From: Bradyrhizobium erythrophlei
GTDB lineage: Bacteria > Pseudomonadota > Alphaproteobacteria > Rhizobiales > Xanthobacteraceae
Assembly (NCBI RefSeq): GCF_900142985.1
Contig: NZ_LT670849.1
Span: forward strand, 2,108,001 to 2,172,000
Direction of reading: 5' to 3'
DNA: 64,000 nt
The notes below the pieces were generated by a model. The model saw nothing but the letters and a program-made list of their open reading frames with translations. It was not told where the DNA came from and searched no databases. Positions 26,614 through 43,540 of this stretch are shown one piece after another; position 1 is the first letter of the stretch; each line of letters opens with the position of its first letter. A program made the position numbers and the translations under genes.

Positions 26614-26688
26614 GCTGCCGTAGCTCAGTGGTAGAGCACTCCATTGGTAATGGAGAGGTCGACAGTTCAATCCTGTCTGGCAGCACCA
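26614..26688 (+). tRNA. tRNA-Thr (GGT), integration site of the element
   Basis: Acceptor stem GCTGCCG pairs with TGGCAGC, the D-arm is TAGCTCAGTGGTAGAGC, and the anticodon loop TTGGTAA carries GGT at 26646-26648. The T-arm is GACAGTTCAATCCTGTC, and CCA is encoded. The gene is intact because the element brought an identical 3' part; the displaced copy lies at 43493-43540. Confidence 0.97.
26641..26688 (+). repeat. attL, 48-bp direct repeat (3' part of tRNA-Thr)
   Basis: Identical over 48 bases to 43493-43540, and the identity stops exactly at both sides. It spans from the anticodon stem to the encoded CCA, the usual core for tRNA-targeting tyrosine integrases. Confidence 0.97.
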
Positions 26689-26838: not shown

Positions 26839-26901
26839 GGGTACTGGCCTGTTTCGACCCCAAGCGGCCTAGTTTGAAGTTAACAGTGGCCTGATTTGAT
26901 T
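26839..26901 (+). repeat. Imperfect direct repeat, copy 1
   Basis: About 60 bases resemble 27501-27563, sharing GGCCTAGTTTGAA and similar flanks. The two copies bracket the zinc-ribbon gene at 27089. The meaning is unknown; they could be duplicated promoter or regulatory segments, or ends of a decayed mobile unit. Confidence 0.5.
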
Positions 26902-27088
26902 TTTCTAAATTTGAATCGGACAAAGGACCAATTCGTGAACCAATCGTTAATTTCTTTGCGGAGGTGAGCAAAACAGAACAGCGCTCCCGTATTGCAGCGC
27001 GCATCGTCGGTTCCATCACCGGCCTTGTAATGGCATCCATCCGGTGACTGAGAGTGTAGCGCTCCCGCCAGATGTGAGGGACCACATC

Positions 27089-27500: not shown

Positions 27501-27563
27501 GGGTTACTGGCTTGTTTCAACCCATAGTGGCCTAGTTTGAAAATAGCAGTGGCATAATTTGTT
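27501..27563 (+). repeat. Imperfect direct repeat, copy 2
   Basis: Partner of 26839-26901. Both contain TGGCxTGTTTC, GGCCTAGTTTGAA and a terminal ATTTG at matching spacing. Confidence 0.5.
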
Positions 27564-27627
27564 CTCTGTAAGGACCACGTCAGCCAAAGCCTCTACAAAG
27601 AGCCATCCTTTGCGTTGGACGGCTTCG

Positions 27628-31565: not shown

Positions 31566-32260
31566 TGCCTTTCTATCGCAGCCCGACAAACATTGACCCT
31601 CTCGCGCCTATTCACATCACGAGCGCGAACCTAACTCGCCTCGCGAACGCGCTGGATGCGCGTCGGCAAGATCGCCTTAACCTTGGCGCTGAATATCGCG
31701 TGCTCGCGAACCGTTTGCGGCCGGACATTGGTCCAAGCGTAGTGCGCTACGAGCGGCCGGTAGAAAAAGCGACCATAGACCTAACTGATCACCGTCCGGT
31801 GCCGGGTAAAATCGACACGGCTGGTGCCATCGACGAAGACACGCGTCGTGCTGACGACGTGGCCCGCATCGAGCGGGGCGAGTCTCTTGAAGACCTGCCA
31901 GATATCAGGACTCAAATGAATCACGTCGCACGTAAGGCTCAGGCTACCGAAGTGGTGATTGAGAAACTTGAGGCTGAGTTTCGCATAGAGCACGCCAAGC
32001 TTTCAGCGGCGTACTGTAAGCCTCTGAAGCCCAAGCACGACGCCGACATGAAAAGGTTTTTCAAAATGTTAGGCGAGGCTTACACAGTCTACTCAGAAAT
32101 GCAGAAGACGAAGCGGGACTTGGTGGAAAGCCAGATCGGGTTCGGCGGCCTATTCGGTGTGAACCTTGATTTCCTTCGCAGCGAAGATGTTCGGACCGCC
32201 TTTAACGAAGCGAAGGCGGCGGGTTACGTCGCTTCGATTCCAGATTTGTTACGCGTGTGA
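31565..32260 (+). CDS. Hypothetical coiled-coil protein upstream of prohead protease
   Basis: A 231-residue protein with a long helical stretch near residues 120-200 (RKAQATEVVIEKLEAEFRIE). It overlaps the prohead protease gene by four bases (GTGA). Position directly before a prohead protease would fit a scaffold-like or protease-partner role, but no portal or scaffold family was recognised. Confidence 0.6.
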   Translation: MPFYRSPTNIDPLAPIHITSANLTRLANALDARRQDRLNLGAEYRVLANRLRPDIGPSVVRYERPVEKATIDLTDHRPVPGKIDTAGAIDEDTRRADDVARIERGESLEDLPDIRTQMNHVARKAQATEVVIEKLEAEFRIEHAKLSAAYCKPLKPKHDADMKRFFKMLGEAYTVYSEMQKTKRDLVESQIGFGGLFGVNLDFLRSEDVRTAFNEAKAAGYVASIPDLLRV

Positions 32261-32799
32261 CGTACAGCGGACTTGTTCTGCATGGATATGGATTCCGGTT
32301 CGATACGCTTTATCGTCACAACGATCGATGGAATTACATCTCACCGGGCGCGTTCGATGAGTCGTTGAAATCGGCTCACGTCGTCCGAATGCTCCTAGAG
32401 CACAACGACGATCTTGAGTTTGGCAACTCACAATCAAATCTGATTTTGCACGCAGATGAGTATGGGGTGGCCTTTAGATGCCACCTTCGGAAAGATAAGA
32501 TCAGTGAGCATGTCACCGCTCTTGCTCAGAGTAAGGCGTTCCTAGATTGCTCTATTGGCTTTACATACGCAGCGTCTAATACGACGACACATACTGTAAG
32601 TCAGAATCCGGTTCATTTCATTAGCAAAGGTGAGCTTCAGGAAATCTCTTTTCTGAGGGCCGGGGCTTGTCCTGAAACCAACGCGACGTTGGAAGATGCC
32701 GATAAGTGCGGGCCGCTCTTCTCGGACTGCAAAGCTTCGCGGCTCGTGAGCGACAACAAGTTCAATCACCTTATACGAACGTTACGGGATATCGAATAG
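32257..32799 (+). CDS. HK97-type prohead protease, copy 1
   Basis: A 180-residue serine protease of the HK97 prohead protease family (U35). The catalytic pair is visible as H49 in VRMLLEHN and S99 in FLDCSIGFTY; YISPGAFDESL is the family N-terminal block. Such proteases cut the capsid scaffold during head maturation. It starts at GTG overlapping the previous stop. No capsid or portal gene is nearby, so the target is probably a helper phage protein or an element protein (inference). Confidence 0.88.
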   Translation: MTYSGLVLHGYGFRFDTLYRHNDRWNYISPGAFDESLKSAHVVRMLLEHNDDLEFGNSQSNLILHADEYGVAFRCHLRKDKISEHVTALAQSKAFLDCSIGFTYAASNTTTHTVSQNPVHFISKGELQEISFLRAGACPETNATLEDADKCGPLFSDCKASRLVSDNKFNHLIRTLRDIE

Positions 32800-32977: not shown

Positions 32978-33307
32978 ATGTTTGAATTACGAAAAACTGA
33001 CTGCGCCGAATCCGTTAGCTATGGATTGAACCTCACAAAGGATTGGCGAGATAAAATGACGGCCCGCTATTCAGATCCGCGCAATGCTCGCGGAGCTGAG
33101 TGTCTGGCGAAGTTGGCAGCCGAAGCGGCTGGACTAAGCGACGCGGATTACATGCAACTTCAACCCTACTTCGAATCTGGCGGTGCTCCTTGGCGAGCCG
33201 CCATTAGCAAAGCAGCTAGGGCTGTGGGATTTAAGCACCGGATCAAGGATTTCCCAACCTTCGTTGAACACCTCATGGAAGTTCTCAATGAACCGGTGGC
33301 AGCGTGA
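32978..33307 (+). CDS. Small element protein before the replication ATPase
   Basis: A 109-residue (or 83-residue, if starting at ATG 33056 after GGCGAG) helical protein with LSDADYMQLQPYFESGGAPWRAA. Its stop overlaps the next start (TGATG), so it is coupled to the ATPase gene. No family recognised; an accessory role in replication is inferred from the coupling. Confidence 0.55.
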   Translation: MFELRKTDCAESVSYGLNLTKDWRDKMTARYSDPRNARGAECLAKLAAEAAGLSDADYMQLQPYFESGGAPWRAAISKAARAVGFKHRIKDFPTFVEHLMEVLNEPVAA

Positions 33308-34791
33308 TGGCTGCTCTGCCCGTGAAGGTTTCAAGTATCGCTTCGGCGGAAGTCAGACCGCGTCGAAATACAGATGCGGAAATCGCACTAAGAAAAGTTC
33401 TTTCTGACTGGAAAGGTGACTTCGTCAATGACGCCTGTCATGCCGCAACCCAAATAGGGAGTTTTCACTCCGGTGGCTGGCTCGGACACAAGGCCAAGGA
33501 GATTGTTCTTGAAGAATTTGATCTCAGGAAAGTGGACGATATCCACTGGTCAACGGTGCATGCAGCGTTCAAGAATGGCTGCGACGCCGTTATTACTCCC
33601 GCACAGCTAAGGGCCAGGTATCTTCCCGTTGCTGCCAACGATAACGAGTTTTTCGAGCCAACCGTTTTCGAATGGGAAGACCCTGCTTCAATTCCGGTGC
33701 GTGACTGGATTTACGGCAGACACCTGATACGCCGTCACGTCTCGGCGACCATTGCGTCCGGTGCAGTCGGAAAAACATCGCTCAAAATCGTTGAAGCATT
33801 AGCCCTTGCTACGGGCCGTCCCCTGCTCGGCCAAGATGTGCCCAAACCTTCGCGGGTTTGGTTGTTCAATCTAGAAGACGACAAGGTTGAACTTCGCCGC
33901 CGCGTCAGTGCGGCAATGATTCACTACAATATCAAGCCAGAGGATATTGGGGACAGGCTGCACATAGATGGCGAGAAGTCGTTGGTCATTACTAAGACGA
34001 CGCGCACGGGAACAATCATAAATGTCCCGGTGGTTGACGCCGCAATTGAGGCCGTCGAAGCCTTGGAAATCGATGTTCTGTTCGTGGACCCCTTCATAAG
34101 CAGCCATGACGCCCCCGAAAGCGATAGCGGAGCGATGGACTTGGTTATGAAGTCCGGCTGGGTCCGCGTGGCTCGCGAGGGCAATTGCGCCGTGGAGCTA
34201 TGCCATCACACGACGAAGGCAGACACTTCCAGTGGAATGGCAACCGCTATGTCCGGGCGAGGCAGCGGTGCGGTGGTCTTTGCTTGCCGCTCTGTGATGG
34301 TTCTCAACCCGATGACCCACGAAGAGGCCAAAGCTGCGGCGCTTCAAAGTCCATCGGGCTATTTCAGCGCGAAAGATGACAAGCAGAATCTGACACTCAA
34401 GACCGGCAGCCGCGATTGGTACAAGATGGAAAGCGTTTCGCTCGGCAATGGCGGTACAGGTAATCTTTCCGGTCTGCGGTCGGACAACATCGGCGTTGTC
34501 ACCCGGTGGCAGTGGCCGACCCAAGCTTCATTTGTGGAAGGAGTTACGAGCCAGCAACTGCTATCTATCCAAGATCGACTCAAGGCCGGGGCATACCGCA
34601 AGGACCCACAGGCGAAGGCATGGGCTGGCTATGTGGTTGGCGAGGTACTTGGGCTCGGCTCTACGAAAGAAGTGATGACGGGCCACGACAAGCAGCGTGT
34701 CAGGCGGATGTTGGATACGTGGCTCAAAGACAAGCAACTCGAAGTCTACGAGCAAAAGGTCAATCGCGAATTTAAGGAATTCATCGCGTGA
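33307..34791 (+). CDS. RecA-like replication ATPase (RepA/AAA_25 family)
   Basis: A 494-residue protein. An N-terminal domain (1-120) is followed by a RecA-fold ATPase with Walker A IASGAVGKTSLK (about 150-160) and Walker B EIDVLFVDPF (about 254-263), then CHHTTKADTSSG. A C-terminal DNA-binding-like tail ends it. The family includes plasmid RepA hexameric helicases and satellite primase-helicases. It probably drives replication of the excised element; a large palindrome follows 60 bases after its stop. Confidence 0.85.
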   Translation: MAALPVKVSSIASAEVRPRRNTDAEIALRKVLSDWKGDFVNDACHAATQIGSFHSGGWLGHKAKEIVLEEFDLRKVDDIHWSTVHAAFKNGCDAVITPAQLRARYLPVAANDNEFFEPTVFEWEDPASIPVRDWIYGRHLIRRHVSATIASGAVGKTSLKIVEALALATGRPLLGQDVPKPSRVWLFNLEDDKVELRRRVSAAMIHYNIKPEDIGDRLHIDGEKSLVITKTTRTGTIINVPVVDAAIEAVEALEIDVLFVDPFISSHDAPESDSGAMDLVMKSGWVRVAREGNCAVELCHHTTKADTSSGMATAMSGRGSGAVVFACRSVMVLNPMTHEEAKAAALQSPSGYFSAKDDKQNLTLKTGSRDWYKMESVSLGNGGTGNLSGLRSDNIGVVTRWQWPTQASFVEGVTSQQLLSIQDRLKAGAYRKDPQAKAWAGYVVGEVLGLGSTKEVMTGHDKQRVRRMLDTWLKDKQLEVYEQKVNREFKEFIA

Positions 34792-34851
34792 TCCGCCAAA
34801 CCTGCGGTACCCGTAGGTACTGCAAGTGTTGTGCAGGTGTAGCAACTACAG

Positions 34852-34896
34852 TGCCGCACCACCCCCACCCTTTCTTAGGGTGGGGGTGGTACGGCA
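34852..34896. repeat. Long near-perfect palindrome after the replication gene
   Basis: ACCACCCCCACCCT (34858-34871) and AGGGTGGGGGTGGT (34877-34890) pair perfectly around the loop TTCTT, and TGCCG / CGGCA extend the stem beyond one mismatch. No T-run follows on either strand. It lies between the convergent ATPase and HDO genes. It could be a bidirectional terminator or part of a replication origin. Confidence 0.8.
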
Positions 34897-35043
34897 GTGA
34901 AGGGAAGAAAAATAAGGGTTTGGCAAAGCCGCCCAATGACCGCTGCCGGGGGGAACCCAGAAGCGGCGGTATGGGGACAAAACCGACGCGATTGACCCAT
35001 CACGCAAGTCGTGAGGCTTCTATAGAATCGAGCTTTCCTTCGG

Positions 35044-35772
35044 CTATCGAGCAGAAGCGACTATAGCGCGCTCGAACGCTTCGTCCCACACGGGAAGCGG
35101 GTACACCTGGTGAAAATAGTCAAAACAGCGGAACATTGCCGTTGGGCTTTCAGGATAACGCGTTGCCACGTCTAATATCAGGTGCTTGATAAAAACGGCG
35201 TGCTTAGCATCCTCTGTTGCATGCTCGATAATGAAGCGGAATCCGTCTGTTGGTAGATCCCGAGCTTTGATAAGAGGCAGCAAAGCTGCTGTAGCCAGCG
35301 CTGTGAGCTCCTCAAAAAGATATTCCGCACCTAAATACCCTAAGGGATCTTCCAACATCGCCATACGCCACCAAACCGCGGCAACCGCAAATGTGGCAGG
35401 TGAGGGCTTTGCTTGTACCTGCGGCTGGCCCCCCAGTTTCTGATGGTCCTCGGCCGCCCAGATGCCGTGCTCGGCCTCTTCCGCCTTATGACCACATAGA
35501 GCCTGGATCAGCCGGACATCGCCTTTCGGCAAGCGGCCGAACATATGGAATCCCGCTTCCGTGGTGTGAGCCTGATACATGACCACAGAGCGAAATATCT
35601 CTCTAATGAACCTGACAATGTCTTCACGCGGGGTATTAGGATCGTGAAGGAATTTCCATCCGCGCCACTCCTTGACCTGCGAGAATACCTTTTCGACTCG
35701 AGCATCGAGCTCGTTAAAGGTCGCGTGGGCTTCTTCCGAGTATTTTCCTGTCTCTTTTGCTACGTGATTCAT
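35044..35772 (-). CDS. Heme-oxygenase-fold diiron oxidase (HDO family)
   Basis: A 242-residue helical protein of the iron-containing redox enzyme / HDO superfamily (relatives: UndA, CADD, BesC). Candidate metal ligands are E98/E101 and H102 in KAEEAEHG, E150/E154 in AEYLFEEL, and H184, D188, H191 in HATEDAKHA, matching the H-x3-D-x2-H end motif. Such enzymes use O2 for oxidative cleavage or decarboxylation of amino acids and fatty acids. Its ATG overlaps the stop of the FeeM-like gene by four bases, so the pair is one coupled operon. The substrate is unknown; an acylated product of the partner is the obvious guess. Confidence 0.8.
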   Translation of the reverse strand: MNHVAKETGKYSEEAHATFNELDARVEKVFSQVKEWRGWKFLHDPNTPREDIVRFIREIFRSVVMYQAHTTEAGFHMFGRLPKGDVRLIQALCGHKAEEAEHGIWAAEDHQKLGGQPQVQAKPSPATFAVAAVWWRMAMLEDPLGYLGAEYLFEELTALATAALLPLIKARDLPTDGFRFIIEHATEDAKHAVFIKHLILDVATRYPESPTAMFRCFDYFHQVYPLPVWDEAFERAIVASAR

Positions 35773-37175
35773 GCGCGCACCTTACTGCTATTTCGAAATG
35801 CAAAAGCATCGAACACTCTTAGAAATATAGAGCGAACAGCGGAAAGCGCTTCTCTATTCCGCAGATTCAATATCATTACAACCAGATCGCCCGCGAATTC
35901 GTCGTGGTAACTGTCGCTGTGCTGAATCCAACCCATTTTTTTGAAAAGCCGGACATAGGCTGGTTTCGTAGACATAACGGCATAGTTAAACCCGCTAATC
36001 ATTGCTACTCGAAAGGCCTCCTGGACCAGAGGAACTAATTGAAGACGCGCTCGGATGCCCTTCGCCAAAACAAGTTGCGAGCAGAGCACAATTTTACCGT
36101 AGTCCGATGGGGCGAAAGGAATGTGTGAACGCAGTCGCAACAAGGAGTCGCCTTGGAGTGGATCGTTGGCTTTCGACAGTCGAACGCCCCCTACGCACTT
36201 CGTGCGGACAGTCGCAACAATATTCACGCTATCCAGATCAATTGGCTCGAGGAAGCAGCGGCTAGATGGGTCGGCGTATGGAGACAACTTCGTGTCGGTT
36301 TTGAAATTCATCAAATATCGAAGCTCGCCTATCTTTCGCAGGTCCTGTGATGTCTTTACCAGCGAGACGCTATATTTGAACATCGAAGCATGAAACTTTC
36401 TGCCCTCATCTTTGAGAATTGGCCACCCGGCCGCCGCTCGATCGAATGAAAACGCCCCGACAATAGCATTCATTTTTGGCTCAGGCCCTTTGCGAAACGT
36501 AAGTGCATCATAAACTCGTAGGAATATGGAGCGAGTAGAGGAAAGAACTTCTCTGTTCCGCAGGTCCAGTATTAAGACGCTCAAATCGCCGGCAATTTTT
36601 TCTCGGTATCCTTCTCCAAACGGGATGAACCCCATTTTTTTGTAGAGCGGAACAAGGGCCGGACGTGCAGATAAGACGGCGTAGTCAATTCCATTTGTAA
36701 GCGAAATTCTGAAAGCCTCTTGAAGAATGCCAGATATTTGAAGTCGCGCGCGTACAGAGTTTGCTAAAACTAACCGCGAGCATACGACCACTTTATCGTA
36801 GTCGGCTGGACTGAAAGGAGTGTGCGAAAGTAATCGAAACAGATACTCATCGTCAAAAGCATCGCAGGCTTTGGTCAATCGAAGGCCCGCTATACATTCG
36901 CCGCGCACCGTTGCTGCCAAGTTCACACTTCGCAGGTCAATTGGTTCAAGAAAACAACGCTTAGAGGAGTCCGCGTGAGCGTAAGGTTTTTTGTCTTGTT
37001 CGATATACATCGAGTATCGGAGCGCGCCGATCTTTGTCAGCCCTTCCGATGTTTTTAAAATCGTTATTGCCCGTTTGATTGTCCAAATACGCCTCTTACG
37101 TTTGGCGTCATTTTTAAGAACTGGCCAAATGCGCGCGACTTGATCGAGCGAAAATGTTCCGGCCACATCATCCAT
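35769..37175 (-). CDS. Tandem-duplicated FeeM/LuxI-like N-acyltransferase
   Basis: A 468-residue protein made of two full copies of one domain: residues 1-234 and 235-468. The second copy still begins with its own methionine (MNAIVGAFSFD against MDDVAGTFSLD). Matching blocks in both copies include RCFLEPIDL, RARLQ, LQEAFR/VQEAFR, KKMGF/KKMGW, and IFLRVYDA/IFLRVFDA. The pattern LRYSMYIE... RLTK... SRLVLA... fits the FeeM N-acyl amino acid synthase branch of the GNAT/autoinducer-synthase fold, which uses acyl-ACP. Sampled lines are 40-45% GC. It is first in the operon with the HDO gene. Confidence 0.75.
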   Translation of the reverse strand: MDDVAGTFSLDQVARIWPVLKNDAKRKRRIWTIKRAITILKTSEGLTKIGALRYSMYIEQDKKPYAHADSSKRCFLEPIDLRSVNLAATVRGECIAGLRLTKACDAFDDEYLFRLLSHTPFSPADYDKVVVCSRLVLANSVRARLQISGILQEAFRISLTNGIDYAVLSARPALVPLYKKMGFIPFGEGYREKIAGDLSVLILDLRNREVLSSTRSIFLRVYDALTFRKGPEPKMNAIVGAFSFDRAAAGWPILKDEGRKFHASMFKYSVSLVKTSQDLRKIGELRYLMNFKTDTKLSPYADPSSRCFLEPIDLDSVNIVATVRTKCVGGVRLSKANDPLQGDSLLRLRSHIPFAPSDYGKIVLCSQLVLAKGIRARLQLVPLVQEAFRVAMISGFNYAVMSTKPAYVRLFKKMGWIQHSDSYHDEFAGDLVVMILNLRNREALSAVRSIFLRVFDAFAFRNSSKVRA

Positions 37176-37662: not shown

Positions 37663-38016
37663 ATGGCTAGGCCAAGAAAACCGACCGCTATGCTCGAATT
37701 GCTCGGCGCATTCAAACGCAATCCAAACAGGAAGAGAGAACGACAAAATGAACCCATCGTAACGACGCCGCTCCCTGATCCACCACGACGGGTCCCGAAG
37801 CCGGTCAAGGAAACTTGGCAGGAAATGCGCGAACGCGGCTGGTGGCTGACAAGCGCCGATAGATTCCTCGTCGAAATCGCAGCTACGCTGATGGCACGAT
37901 ATCGGTTAGAGGAAATCAAATCCGGCGACGTATCGAATTTAATTGGCGTGCTAAGCAAGCTCGGATTCTCTCCGAGAGAACGCGGCGCGCTGAATCTGCC
38001 AACGCGGACGACTTAA
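37663..38016 (+). CDS. Phage terminase small subunit, P27 type
   Basis: A 117-residue protein starting MARPRKPTAMLELLGAFKRN, the family opening, with PKPVKETWQEM and SADRFLVEIAATLMARYR. The ending LSKLGFSPRERGALNLP is a strong P27-family signature. Small terminase subunits choose the DNA to be packaged. No large subunit was found in the element, which is typical for satellites that redirect a helper phage's packaging motor. ATG 37663 is preferred over the longer open frame. Confidence 0.88.
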   Translation: MARPRKPTAMLELLGAFKRNPNRKRERQNEPIVTTPLPDPPRRVPKPVKETWQEMRERGWWLTSADRFLVEIAATLMARYRLEEIKSGDVSNLIGVLSKLGFSPRERGALNLPTRTT

Positions 38017-38440: not shown

Positions 38441-39031
38441 ATGGACCACATCTATTGCCCGCTCGAAATCAAAGCAGGCTCGAATGACGACGATGGAACG
38501 TTTGTCGGATACGGGTCAACATTCGGTAACGTTGACGACTATGGCGATACGGTAGCTCCCGGCGCGTTCCGAAAAACGATTGCAGACGCGAAGAGCGGCG
38601 CGGCTCAATGGCCTGCACTACTCTCACAACATTCCGATGTCCCTATCGGCATCTGGACCGGCATGGAAGAGGACGAACGCGGCTTGAAGCTGAAAGGCAA
38701 GCTGGCGATCAACACACGGCGCGGTGCGGACGCGTATGCGCTCTTGAAGATGAAACCACGCCCCGCGTTCAACGGGTTGAGTATTGGCTACAGGGCGAAA
38801 GACTTTGATTTACATAAATCAGGTTCGGGTCCGAACGGCGCGAAGCGAACGCTGAAGGCGGTTGATCTAGTAGAATGCAGCCTTGTGACAGTTCCCGCTG
38901 ACAGATTCGCTCGCGTTGGCGGTGTTAAGTCATGGCTTGAAGAAGAGTCCGAAGCGCCAGCCATGACGATTAAAGAACTGGCTTGGATGGATTTCGTGGC
39001 GTTGCGGCGGCTGACCGAGACTCGTCGGTGA
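38441..39031 (+). CDS. HK97-type prohead protease, copy 2
   Basis: A 196-residue U35 serine protease. H64 in PALLSQHSDVPIG and S114 in NGLSIGYRAKDF are the catalytic pair; FVGYGSTFGNVDDYGDTVAPGAF is the family start block. It is clearly diverged from the copy at 32257, so it is not a recent duplication. The position after terS follows HK97-type order, but the portal and capsid genes that should flank it are missing. Confidence 0.92.
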   Translation: MDHIYCPLEIKAGSNDDDGTFVGYGSTFGNVDDYGDTVAPGAFRKTIADAKSGAAQWPALLSQHSDVPIGIWTGMEEDERGLKLKGKLAINTRRGADAYALLKMKPRPAFNGLSIGYRAKDFDLHKSGSGPNGAKRTLKAVDLVECSLVTVPADRFARVGGVKSWLEEESEAPAMTIKELAWMDFVALRRLTETRR

Positions 39032-39702: not shown

Positions 39703-40410
39703 CTATTGGTATTTTCGACGCTTAAACGCGGCAACGTCTGCGCGATCAAGCTTAAACCATTCACCATTAGCTCGCTTGTCTGCAAAACGACGATGCCAAT
39801 AACCTTCGATACCGGCTGGATCGTCAGTCCTGATGGAGTGTTCGAGGGTAGCGCTGTCGGGCAGCGCCACACGTATTTCCTTAACACGCCGCTCCAATTC
39901 GTCGCTCCGGCCAATTTTGTAGTGTGAACCAGAACGGATCAGATAAACAAATCCTTCTTTTATATTGGACGGAATCACCGGAGTCGGTGCGAGGTTGGCA
40001 CTCAATATTTTTTCAATGTCGGCGCGGTTGTTCGCCACCGCCCATTCTAAAAGCTGACGCGGTACGTTCTTCAATGAACCGAACTGCCTTGTGATGCTCT
40101 TGGTGCTAGGGAACGCTTCATCAATCTTACTGTACATCCGAAGCTCCATCGCGGTCGGAAACTTCCGCAGATGGATGCAGGCTTCAGCGAGCTTTTCTAG
40201 AAAAAACTTCTCTTCATGTTTCTCCTGTTTAACATTCGGTTCGAAACCGGCTTCGGTGACGGCATCACCCCAACGTGCCCACAAAACTCCTCGCCATGCA
40301 CTTTGGCGGATACCAGTTTCATTCTCAAATGTACGCGAACCCGGAGGCTTCCCACCATCTGCTTCGGCGAGACGCTTTATTTCTCTTAGTATCGTTTCTC
40401 GCACAGTCAC
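39703..40410 (-). CDS. GIY-YIG family protein (T5orf172-like)
   Basis: A 235-residue protein. Residues 1-145 are helical and unlike known domains. The C-terminal part is a GIY-YIG nuclease-like fold: GFVYLIRSGSHYKIGRS, then LERRVKEI, and the distal EGYWHRRFADKRANGEWF. Family members are found in phages and satellites and may cut or bind DNA. It overlaps the XRE regulator gene by four bases, so the two are made together. Confidence 0.8.
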   Translation of the reverse strand: MTVRETILREIKRLAEADGGKPPGSRTFENETGIRQSAWRGVLWARWGDAVTEAGFEPNVKQEKHEEKFFLEKLAEACIHLRKFPTAMELRMYSKIDEAFPSTKSITRQFGSLKNVPRQLLEWAVANNRADIEKILSANLAPTPVIPSNIKEGFVYLIRSGSHYKIGRSDELERRVKEIRVALPDSATLEHSIRTDDPAGIEGYWHRRFADKRANGEWFKLDRADVAAFKRRKYQ

Positions 40411-41260: not shown

Positions 41261-41599
41261 ATGAAATTGCGAGCTGCGAACGATAATGAACCGATTGGGA
41301 CTATCTACAAATTCGAGGAAGCCGCCGCTAAATTACGGGTTGGGAAACGCTCGCTTCAAGACATCATCAAGCGACATCCGCACTACGCAAAGAATGGCAG
41401 GACCTATCTGTTTTCTGAAAATGACATTCGATTAATTTGGGAGGGGATGCATTGTCACTCAAGCTCGTCAAGCGATCAGGTTCGGACCACTACTATCTCC
41501 GTGGCACCGTCCGCAAACAGTCTGTATTCGAAAGCACGGGCACTGACGACAAGAAGGCCGCAGAGGCAATCCGCATCAAACGTGAAGCTCGCCTCTTAG
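41261..41599 (+). CDS. Excisionase-like winged-helix protein
   Basis: A 112-residue protein. The first half is a MerR/excisionase HTH: IYKFEEAAAKLRVGKRSLQDI and RHPHYAKNGRTYLFSENDI. The Ser/Thr-rich second half is encoded in a different frame over the first 148 bases of the integrase gene. GGGGAA precedes the ATG. It should control direction of recombination. Confidence 0.75.
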   Translation: MKLRAANDNEPIGTIYKFEEAAAKLRVGKRSLQDIIKRHPHYAKNGRTYLFSENDIRLIWEGMHCHSSSSSDQVRTTTISVAPSANSLYSKARALTTRRPQRQSASNVKLAS

Positions 41600-42612
41600 A
41601 GGATAGTGTTTACGGCAAGCAATCTACCGTTACGTTCTTCGAAGCCGCGGTTTCATACATGGCGGGCGGTGGCTCACCTAGATTTCTAGGAGAGGAAAAG
41701 AATGGGCGCTGGACTCGTTTGCTTGGCCATTTCGAGAAAACGAAATTGCATTCCATTGGCCAAGACGAATTAGATGCTGCGGCAAATATTTTGTACCCCA
41801 ACACGTCTGCGGCGACTCGCAATAGGCAGTGCCACGCTCCTTTTATTACAGTTTGGAATCATGCCGTAAGGAACAAGTGGGCTGAACCACGGAAATGGGT
41901 TCGGCCTCGTAAGCCGAAGGGCACGACTGTAAAGCTGACCCCGAAGAAGTATCGGGCTGGGACAACGCCCGTGGCTTATGACTACGCCGCGAGGTTTGTG
42001 ATGGCGATGTCGCCAGCCCCAGCGATGCTTTTGACGACGATGTTTTACACCGGAATGCGCCCCATCGAATTGTTCGTCATGGAGGACTATCAGCTTAACA
42101 TCGAAGGTCGATGGGTCACGCTCGATGCAAGTAAGACCGGCGAACCTCGTGGCGTTCCCATGCACGAAGTATTGGTGCCGCTGTTCACCGGCCTTTGTAA
42201 GCGCGGCGGCTTCTTGTTCCGAACACCACGCGGCAAGCCATATGAGCCGAAGGAGGACGAAGGCGGCCAGATGAAAACTGCGATCAACGGTGCGCGGCGG
42301 CGGTCAGGAATTAGGGATATCTCGCCTTACACCGGGCGGCATTCGTGTTCGACGCAGTTGGTGGTCAACGGCATACACCCGCACATTAAGGATCAGATTA
42401 TGGGCCATGCGGTTGGCGACGATATGAGCCGTCATTATACCAACGTGCCGCAGCCTAAGTTGATCGAGGCCATTAATACCCTGCCGGTAATCAATGAGTG
42501 GGCAAATGCGCCGTGGATGAAGGACCCACTGAAGTGGGCCAACAGGCTCGCCGCAGGCACGGGCAAGCGAAACGACCTAGTGGGTCGAAGGGACGAAGTC
42601 GCTTTGCGCTAG
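41452..42612 (+). CDS. int: Tyrosine site-specific integrase
   Basis: A 386-residue tyrosine recombinase. Catalytic residues are R203 in FYTGMRPIEL, the arginine/histidine block YTGRHSCSTQL, the histidine of QIMGHAVGDD, and nucleophile Y329 in SRHYTNVP. An N-terminal arm/SAM-like domain spans about 60-170. The start is TTG 41452 with GGGAGGGG ahead; a TTG at 41437 is the alternative. It targets the tRNA-Thr 3' end. Confidence 0.94.
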   Translation: MSLKLVKRSGSDHYYLRGTVRKQSVFESTGTDDKKAAEAIRIKREARLLEDSVYGKQSTVTFFEAAVSYMAGGGSPRFLGEEKNGRWTRLLGHFEKTKLHSIGQDELDAAANILYPNTSAATRNRQCHAPFITVWNHAVRNKWAEPRKWVRPRKPKGTTVKLTPKKYRAGTTPVAYDYAARFVMAMSPAPAMLLTTMFYTGMRPIELFVMEDYQLNIEGRWVTLDASKTGEPRGVPMHEVLVPLFTGLCKRGGFLFRTPRGKPYEPKEDEGGQMKTAINGARRRSGIRDISPYTGRHSCSTQLVVNGIHPHIKDQIMGHAVGDDMSRHYTNVPQPKLIEAINTLPVINEWANAPWMKDPLKWANRLAAGTGKRNDLVGRRDEVALR

Positions 42613-42651
42613 CGCTTGAGAGCGGCGATGGCACCCGGTACCATGAGCCGC

Positions 42652-43404
42652 ATGGCTAGATGCACAGCACCAAGATTTGGCCACCGCACGGCGAGCGGTC
42701 GAGCGGCCTGCCCTGCATGCGGTGGGCGCGGCTACGGCGGTTATGGCGGCGGCTACAGCAGCTACAGTTCGTACTCGCCCCCATCCTACTCGCCCCCGTC
42801 TTACTCATCGTCGGGGAGTAGCGGGAGTGGCCGGAGTAGCGGCGGCGGGTCCGGCGGCCGCGTAAGGGCGCGATGGTCGCGAGCAGGCTCGTCCGTGACG
42901 TACACGCCGGCCGAGGTGCAAGCGCTCACGCCGGTCCGCGAGAGCGTCGAAAAACAAGCGTTCCTTGACCTTCGGGATATGTTTCTCTGCCATGCGTGGG
43001 ACGACCGCGAGGGGGCCGCCAAGGAACTCCACGACCTGCTTGAGGCACGCGGTGTCAAAGTCTGGTTCAGTGAGAAGGACGTAGGCCTCGGCGTGCCCTT
43101 GATGCGCGCCATCGATAAAGGCTTGGCGGCCTCGCGGATCGGAATCGTCCTTGTCACCCCAGCGCTGCTGCGCCGCCTGCCAACGGAAAGCATCGCCGAC
43201 AAAGAACTTTCGGTACTTCTAGCTGGTAACCGTCTCGTTCCCGTTGTTCACGGAACGACATACGAAGCCCTCCGTAACGTCAGCCCAATGCTCGCCTCTC
43301 GAACCGGCTTAGATACCGCAGAGAATACGATGGCAGAGGTCGCGACCAAGCTCGCCGATCTAGCCAATCCCAAACCTATCGCCGAGGAGGCGGCCCGCTC
43401 CTAG
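42652..43404 (+). CDS. TIR-domain protein with Gly/Ser/Tyr-rich N-terminus
   Basis: A 250-residue protein. The start has a CxxC knuckle (CPACGG, C20/C23), then a low-complexity GYGGYGGGYSSYSS-type stretch to residue 70, then a TIR domain (about 105-240). The first strand is DMFLCHAWDDREG, the BB-loop region is WFSEKDVGLG, and the likely catalytic glutamate is E175 in ADKELS. Bacterial TIR domains cleave NAD+ and act in anti-phage defence. It lies 39 bases after int and 88 bases before attR, a common defence-cargo spot. Other starts at 42616 and 42628 are possible. Confidence 0.82.
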   Translation: MARCTAPRFGHRTASGRAACPACGGRGYGGYGGGYSSYSSYSPPSYSPPSYSSSGSSGSGRSSGGGSGGRVRARWSRAGSSVTYTPAEVQALTPVRESVEKQAFLDLRDMFLCHAWDDREGAAKELHDLLEARGVKVWFSEKDVGLGVPLMRAIDKGLAASRIGIVLVTPALLRRLPTESIADKELSVLLAGNRLVPVVHGTTYEALRNVSPMLASRTGLDTAENTMAEVATKLADLANPKPIAEEAARS

Positions 43405-43492: not shown

Positions 43493-43540
43493 CCATTGGT
43501 AATGGAGAGGTCGACAGTTCAATCCTGTCTGGCAGCACCA
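43493..43540 (+). repeat. attR, 48-bp direct repeat
   Basis: Exact copy of 26641-26688, lacking the 5' half of a tRNA. It marks the original downstream end of tRNA-Thr and the right border of the element. Confidence 0.97.

Follow-up and report, generated by a model that had tools for sequence, protein, structure and literature searches.

We analysed a 64,000-nucleotide (nt) stretch of the 7.5-Mb single-contig genome of Bradyrhizobium erythrophlei (NZ_LT670849.1, positions 2,108,001 to 2,172,000; hereafter the window) with regard to two adjacent genes, for an acyltransferase and an oxidase, that lie within an integrated element (Table 1). An earlier note, made from the letters alone, had proposed that they form an operon with a four-base overlap, coupling a FeeM/LuxI-like N-acyltransferase with a heme-oxygenase-like dimetal oxidase (HDO) on a mobile, phage-satellite-like element. 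Both open reading frames (ORFs) were indeed present on the minus strand, each with an ATG start, and they overlapped at positions 35769–35772, the acyltransferase gene being the first and the oxidase gene the second of the pair. NCBIfam returned no match for either protein. A consensus scan yielded five promoter-like sites (2.4 expected, standard deviation 1.5) and three terminator-like sites (4.2 expected), while Rfam at its gathering threshold recovered tRNA only.

Table 1. Gene pair and element features in the window (positions of the whole stretch)
Feature	Position	Strand	Evidence
Tandem FeeM/LuxI-fold N-acyltransferase, 468 aa	35769..37175	-	PF21926 1e-11, two stretches; halves 52% identical
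N-terminal acyltransferase copy, residues 1-236	36468..37175	-	departs at 1/33 conserved columns
C-terminal acyltransferase copy, residues 237-468	35769..36467	-	departs at 5/33 conserved columns: Y65S, T101S, D109G, R134Q, R171K
Heme-oxygenase-like dimetal oxidase (HDO), 242 aa	35044..35772	-	PF14518; fold model; metal motif
attL, 3' 48 nt of tRNA-Thr(GGT) 26614-26688	26641..26688	+	perfect 48-nt repeat; tRNA call
attR, copy of the 48-nt repeat	43493..43540	+	repeat; site empty in two relatives
Tyrosine integrase (longest ORF; true start maybe later)	41437..42612	+	PF00589 5.6e-13, phrog_1 4.2e-29
Excisionase-like helix-turn-helix protein	41261..41599	+	phrog_1840 2e-5; PF12728 under cut-off
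AAA ATPase, primase/helicase-like	33304..34791	+	PF13481 8.6e-31, phrog_906 1.3e-29
Small terminase-like protein	37666..38016	+	phrog_83 3.5e-8; no Pfam match
Prohead protease-like protein	38441..39031	+	PF04586 8.4e-24, phrog_80 3.4e-41
Second prohead protease-like protein	32257..32799	+	PF04586 1.6e-21, phrog_80 2e-16

The oxidase and its metal motif

The Pfam family PF14518 (Haem_oxygenas_2) matched the oxidase with 41.7 bits (cut-off 28.9; E 1.4e-10), and the predicted structure displayed the helical heme-oxygenase-like fold typical of HDOs. All six residues of the E-H-E-H-D-H metal motif were present (E99, H102, E154, H184, D188 and H191) and fell in model helices 86–112, 143–170 and 179–205, in agreement with the proposed family assignment. 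In an alignment of relatives the motif was complete in 119 of 124 rows; a further histidine, H95, was kept in all 119 of these, and a further glutamate, E72, in 118, with a gap in the remaining one. The characterized HDOs UndA, CtCADD, HrmI, BesC and RohS have the fold and an E-H-E-H-(D/E)-H motif in common with the window protein, but are only 12–18% identical to it, H95 and E72 being additional conserved positions of the latter. The closest solved relative, 3dde, has a title without an assigned function.

At least 184 relatives of this HDO clade were found in the protein collection. In contigs and records of viral origin, neither the HDO alone nor the HDO alignment retrieved a confirmed relative from viral contigs, tblastn of phage records gave none, and the viral structure library held no HDO match at E 0.001 or better. 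A relative occurred in one of 72,556 plasmid records.

A duplicated acyltransferase

The Pfam family PF21926 (FeeM) matched the 468-aa protein in two stretches (45.3 bits in total against a cut-off of 27), and the N-terminal copy alone still reached 28.7 bits. This first half was modelled as a LuxI/FeeM fold, with the N-acyl homoserine lactone (AHL) synthases LasI, BjaI and RpaI as best Foldseek matches. A phmmer search of solved structures gave no useful match and a profile search only weak GNAT matches, so that the fold class was settled by the fold search; the structural alignment with FeeM (PDB 2g0b) comprised 11% identical residues. The structure predictions thus returned both folds that the earlier note had named. 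What that note had overlooked is that the acyltransferase, in contrast to FeeM, carries two copies of the domain per chain: the copies share 52% identity across 229 aa (E 3e-88). They differ by a nonsynonymous divergence (dN) of 0.38 and a synonymous divergence (dS) of 1.47 (dN/dS ~0.26), indicating that protein-level constraint acted on average.

The two copies have not diverged evenly. In an alignment of 33 rows, in which 33 columns were kept at ≥90%, the five departures of the C-terminal copy were the highest count of any row, and its terminal tree branch measured 0.53 as against 0.21 for the N-terminal copy. The C-terminal copy, instead of being a plain second active site, is probably altered, whether to a structural or regulatory role or to another specificity. 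Since the near relatives P0121, P0126 and P0127 are single-domain proteins of 262–264 aa (P0121 possibly cut by a contig end), the duplication may be recent in the line of the window.

A Ser-Arg motif is kept across the family, S133 being invariant and R134 nearly so. It is the counterpart of Ser103-Arg104 of LasI, as tabulated in PMC9654057, and is common to the family and the LuxI-type AHL synthases. At the position of Glu94 in FeeM and Glu101 in LasI, by contrast, the family apparently has a hydrophobic residue (V, I or L, as read by eye via the Ser-Arg motif). Because the Ser-Arg pair is kept but the glutamate position appears to be occupied by V, I or L, the chemistry of the family may differ from that of both FeeM and LuxI enzymes. 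We considered whether R134Q marks the C-terminal copy as a dead active site and rejected this, for the same table lists Gln97, next to Glu94–Val96, among the active-site residues of FeeM.

The divergence of the second copy, together with the existence of HDOs devoid of the full metal motif (G971, G1054, P0072 and P0115), would be compatible with degenerating or passenger genes that have no current function on the element. Yet both frames of the window pair are open, all six motif residues of its HDO are intact, the dN/dS ratio between the acyltransferase copies is low as given above, and 51 contigs are represented by the closest HDO cluster (92% identity). We consider decay of the pair very improbable.

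Recurrence of the pair

The oxidase is rare in the genus. At E 1e-20 it was found in 2 of 265 genus, 2 of 391 family, 3 of 397 order and 1 of 385 class genomes, sets that overlap and each include the genome of the window itself. The earlier note had staked its proposal on the two genes being neighbours elsewhere, and the pair was intact at two further loci. In genome G359, of the same genus, the genes again overlap by four bases; the acyltransferase partner is 34% identical to the N-terminal copy over 195 aa but scores under the Pfam cut-off, and the pair is chromosomal, ~8.6 kb from an integrase gene. In Rhizobium sp. CB3171 the pair resides on a plasmid, with insertion sequence transposase genes ~6–12 kb upstream, and the partner is 36% identical to the N-terminal copy over 175 aa without any Pfam match. 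Since one of these loci is chromosomal and the other lies on a plasmid, the two genes do not depend on a satellite to occur together. The annotated start of the CB3171 FeeM-type gene (L010, 11433–12020, plus strand) may be too late: similarity to the profile already sets in a little before it, without a break in the open frame, although the profile includes the annotated protein itself.

In the protein collection, six of 32 FeeM-type proteins were found on contigs of exactly the same size (1814, 5975, 2286, 1342, 101253 and 305023) as the contig of one of 120 listed oxidases, where 0.42 such cases were expected by chance (30 of the 32 lengths entered this estimate). For two of the six, Rhizobium sp. 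CB3171 and R. aquaticum, the match was confirmed by record name. A search of genome contigs with the acyltransferase gave one distant match, in Cytobacillus, with a different gene context. Among 140 order genomes, 35 had FeeM matches and 8 had PF14518 matches, but only the genome of the window had both, so that the two families generally occur apart. Of the FeeM genes that Pfam detects in this set, none but that of the window adjoined an HDO, although the Pfam profile is weak on this clade and pairs may be missed.

Looser arrangements were observed as well. In G971, a FeeM-like ORF (25% identity over 177 aa, 2e-9; profile 3.3e-12; no Pfam match at 0.01) is divergent from an oxidase gene whose product lacks five of the six motif residues. 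The oxidase of G1054 lacks four of six, and no FeeM match was found within the 16 kb examined at its locus; 12 genomes of the G971/G1054 family yielded no further cases. HDO homologues of this kind, from two genomes of one genus (L013, 6712–7371, minus strand; L014, 7278–8135, plus strand), have lost most metal ligands while their frames are open, and one of them is divergent from a FeeM-like gene.

The integrated element

The pair is located on a 16.9-kb element whose ends, 26641 and 43540, are defined by a perfect 48-nt direct repeat joining the 3' end of a tRNA-Thr gene to a second copy. A search with the right flank covered 11 genomes, and six loci were compared for an empty site. Two of the six, L082 (G1213) and L085 (G1202), were empty: the same tRNA-Thr was followed ~0.8 kb on by the flanking outer-membrane protein gene, with no match to the element. 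Similarity of the left flank extended beyond the tRNA in both, weakly in L085 (~58 bp). For L083, L084, L086 and L087 the tRNA falls outside the stretches compared, and in G1292 and G1181 ~2.9 and 6.0 kb, respectively, separate the repeat from the flanking gene. The repeat and the two empty sites bear out the mobile location that had been postulated.

Ten ORFs of the element were scanned with PHROGs and 18 with Pfam. Together with the att repeats and the empty sites, the integrase and excisionase-like genes represent the site-specific integration feature of phage-inducible chromosomal island (PICI)-like satellites, and among the ORFs scanned one gene for a small terminase-like and two for prohead protease-like proteins were recognised as well, in accordance with the satellite-like character proposed earlier. 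The low G+C content that had been taken as a mark of transfer is a real but modest contrast. The acyltransferase and oxidase genes have 48.3% and 53.1%, respectively, and the element ~50–59% in 2-kb windows, compared with ~59–66% for the chromosome on both near sides (18–26 kb and 43–64 kb), but the far-left chromosome (1–18 kb) reaches only 56–61%.

The AAA protein was matched at 1e-60 in 28 of 257 genus genomes, that of the window included. Six AAA regions from six other genomes were compared; none carried the pair, and five shared the AAA gene only. The remaining one, in G1267, is a sibling element that shares the AAA protein (54%), two small proteins and a prohead protease (45%) but does not carry the pair. 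The pair is therefore variable cargo.

A proposed route to an oxidised acyl-amide

Known LuxI/FeeM-fold synthases feed O2-dependent oxidases. According to PMC10404671, TyzA acts before TyzC in this manner, and N-acyl dehydrotyrosine clusters are described in PMC12479983 as synthase, ThiF and nitroreductase genes. On the simplest reading, which we consider moderately likely, the synthase of the window forms an N-acyl amide that the HDO then oxidises, and the pair is a mobile pathway of two enzymes, travelling as cargo of a phage-satellite-like element that is integrated at a tRNA gene. The acyltransferase would take a fatty-acyl group from a carrier (acyl carrier protein or coenzyme A) and attach it to an amino acid, or a comparable amine, at the amino group. 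The HDO would then employ O2 and two bound metals to oxidise the acylated compound, most likely by desaturating or oxidatively decarboxylating its amino-acid portion and less likely by N-hydroxylation, giving a small, probably diffusible acyl-amide.

The system may best be read as a parallel to the synthase–nitroreductase (Tyz/Oxz) operons with a different class of oxidase. In those operons (TyzA/OxzA/NasY with TyzC; PMC10404671 and PMC12479983), an N-acyltransferase of FeeM/AHL-synthase fold is clustered with an O2-dependent oxidase that modifies the N-acyl amino acid, as the HDO of the window would do. The Tyz/Oxz oxidase, however, is a flavin nitroreductase and is accompanied by a ThiF-type enzyme, whereas the oxidase of the window pair is an HDO and its synthase is duplicated in tandem and encoded on an integrated element. 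Pfam scans of 18 element ORFs revealed neither ThiF nor nitroreductase.

The structural matches of the oxidase with RohS, HrmI and BesC suggest another order of events, in which the HDO works ahead of the acyltransferase or independently of it. Like these enzymes it would make an oxidised amine or amino acid, to be acyl-capped by the acyltransferase afterwards. That the acyltransferase gene comes first, and that the oxidase of the known synthase operons acts on the N-acyl amino acid, both speak against this order without being decisive. We regard it as unlikely compared with acylation followed by oxidation.

LuxR-type (GerE) regulators, three in total, adjoin both other intact loci (G359 and CB3171). 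Where they adjoin the module, such regulators would control the product. Together with the AHL synthases as top fold matches and the LasI-like Ser-Arg pair, they raise the prospect of a quorum-sensing-type cassette, in which the LuxI-fold enzyme makes an AHL-like or other acyl signal, the HDO tailors it and the adjacent regulators respond. Autoind_synth, however, was not listed for the acyltransferase at an E limit of 10, although HMMER filters drop most matches above 0.1. Two of the three regulators had weak PAS matches, weak HTH matches occurred among them as well, that of G359 scored under the Pfam cut-offs, and no AHL-binding domain was listed for any of them at E 0.01, which argues against a standard AHL circuit while leaving room for a signal role. 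Furthermore, no regulator was recognised beside the window pair among the window ORFs scanned. A quorum-sensing cassette thus appears quite unlikely.

A bolder version of the oxidised acyl-amide route is conceivable but improbable: the pair may be a minimal mobile cassette in which a duplicated LuxI-fold synthase without the usual active-site glutamate and an HDO whose metal site is enlarged to four histidines would yield an unseen oxidised acyl-amide. The satellite would use it as a signal or as a weapon directed at competing phages or nearby cells, and plasmids and islands would have spread related copies. At E 0.01, PADLOC listed no model for the acyltransferase or the oxidase; neither is therefore a described defence protein, and either could still be an undescribed one.

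The earlier note knew of no described system with this pairing on a satellite. Our literature search, with subscription journals mostly out of reach, likewise found no report of a FeeM-type acyltransferase paired with an HDO among the papers listed, as judged by title and opening of the abstract. Other intact loci lie on a plasmid and a chromosome, and the coupling of an N-acyl amino acid synthase with an O2-dependent oxidase is already known; the novelty, within the literature covered, is that the partner is an HDO. LuxI/FeeM-fold synthases would thereby gain a new class of partner, and with only two genes the operon provides a testable route to an oxidised acyl-amide that is probably unknown. 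Cargo usually described for phage satellites is of defence type; small-molecule synthesis carried by a phage-satellite-like element would extend it to chemistry. No more than about a dozen HDOs have been functionally validated, as stated in PMC13108848. Some of the relatives in the present clade carry a built-in hint of their substrate.

Further observations on the element

The two prohead protease-like genes are distinct from each other, and no separate capsid gene was recognised among the ORFs scanned. Just inside attR, a TIR-domain protein (42616–43404, plus strand) matched the PADLOC model ThsB (Thoeris TIR) at 1.3e-118; the PADLOC scan, which covered few ORFs, recognised no ThsA. The element also encodes a MUG113/T5orf172-domain protein (39703–40410, minus strand). 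A 26-nt inverted repeat (34846–34902, 88% complementary, 5-nt gap) is situated just downstream of the AAA gene, and the left part of the element contains a 70-nt direct repeat, 79% identical, at 26839–26908 and 27502–27571.
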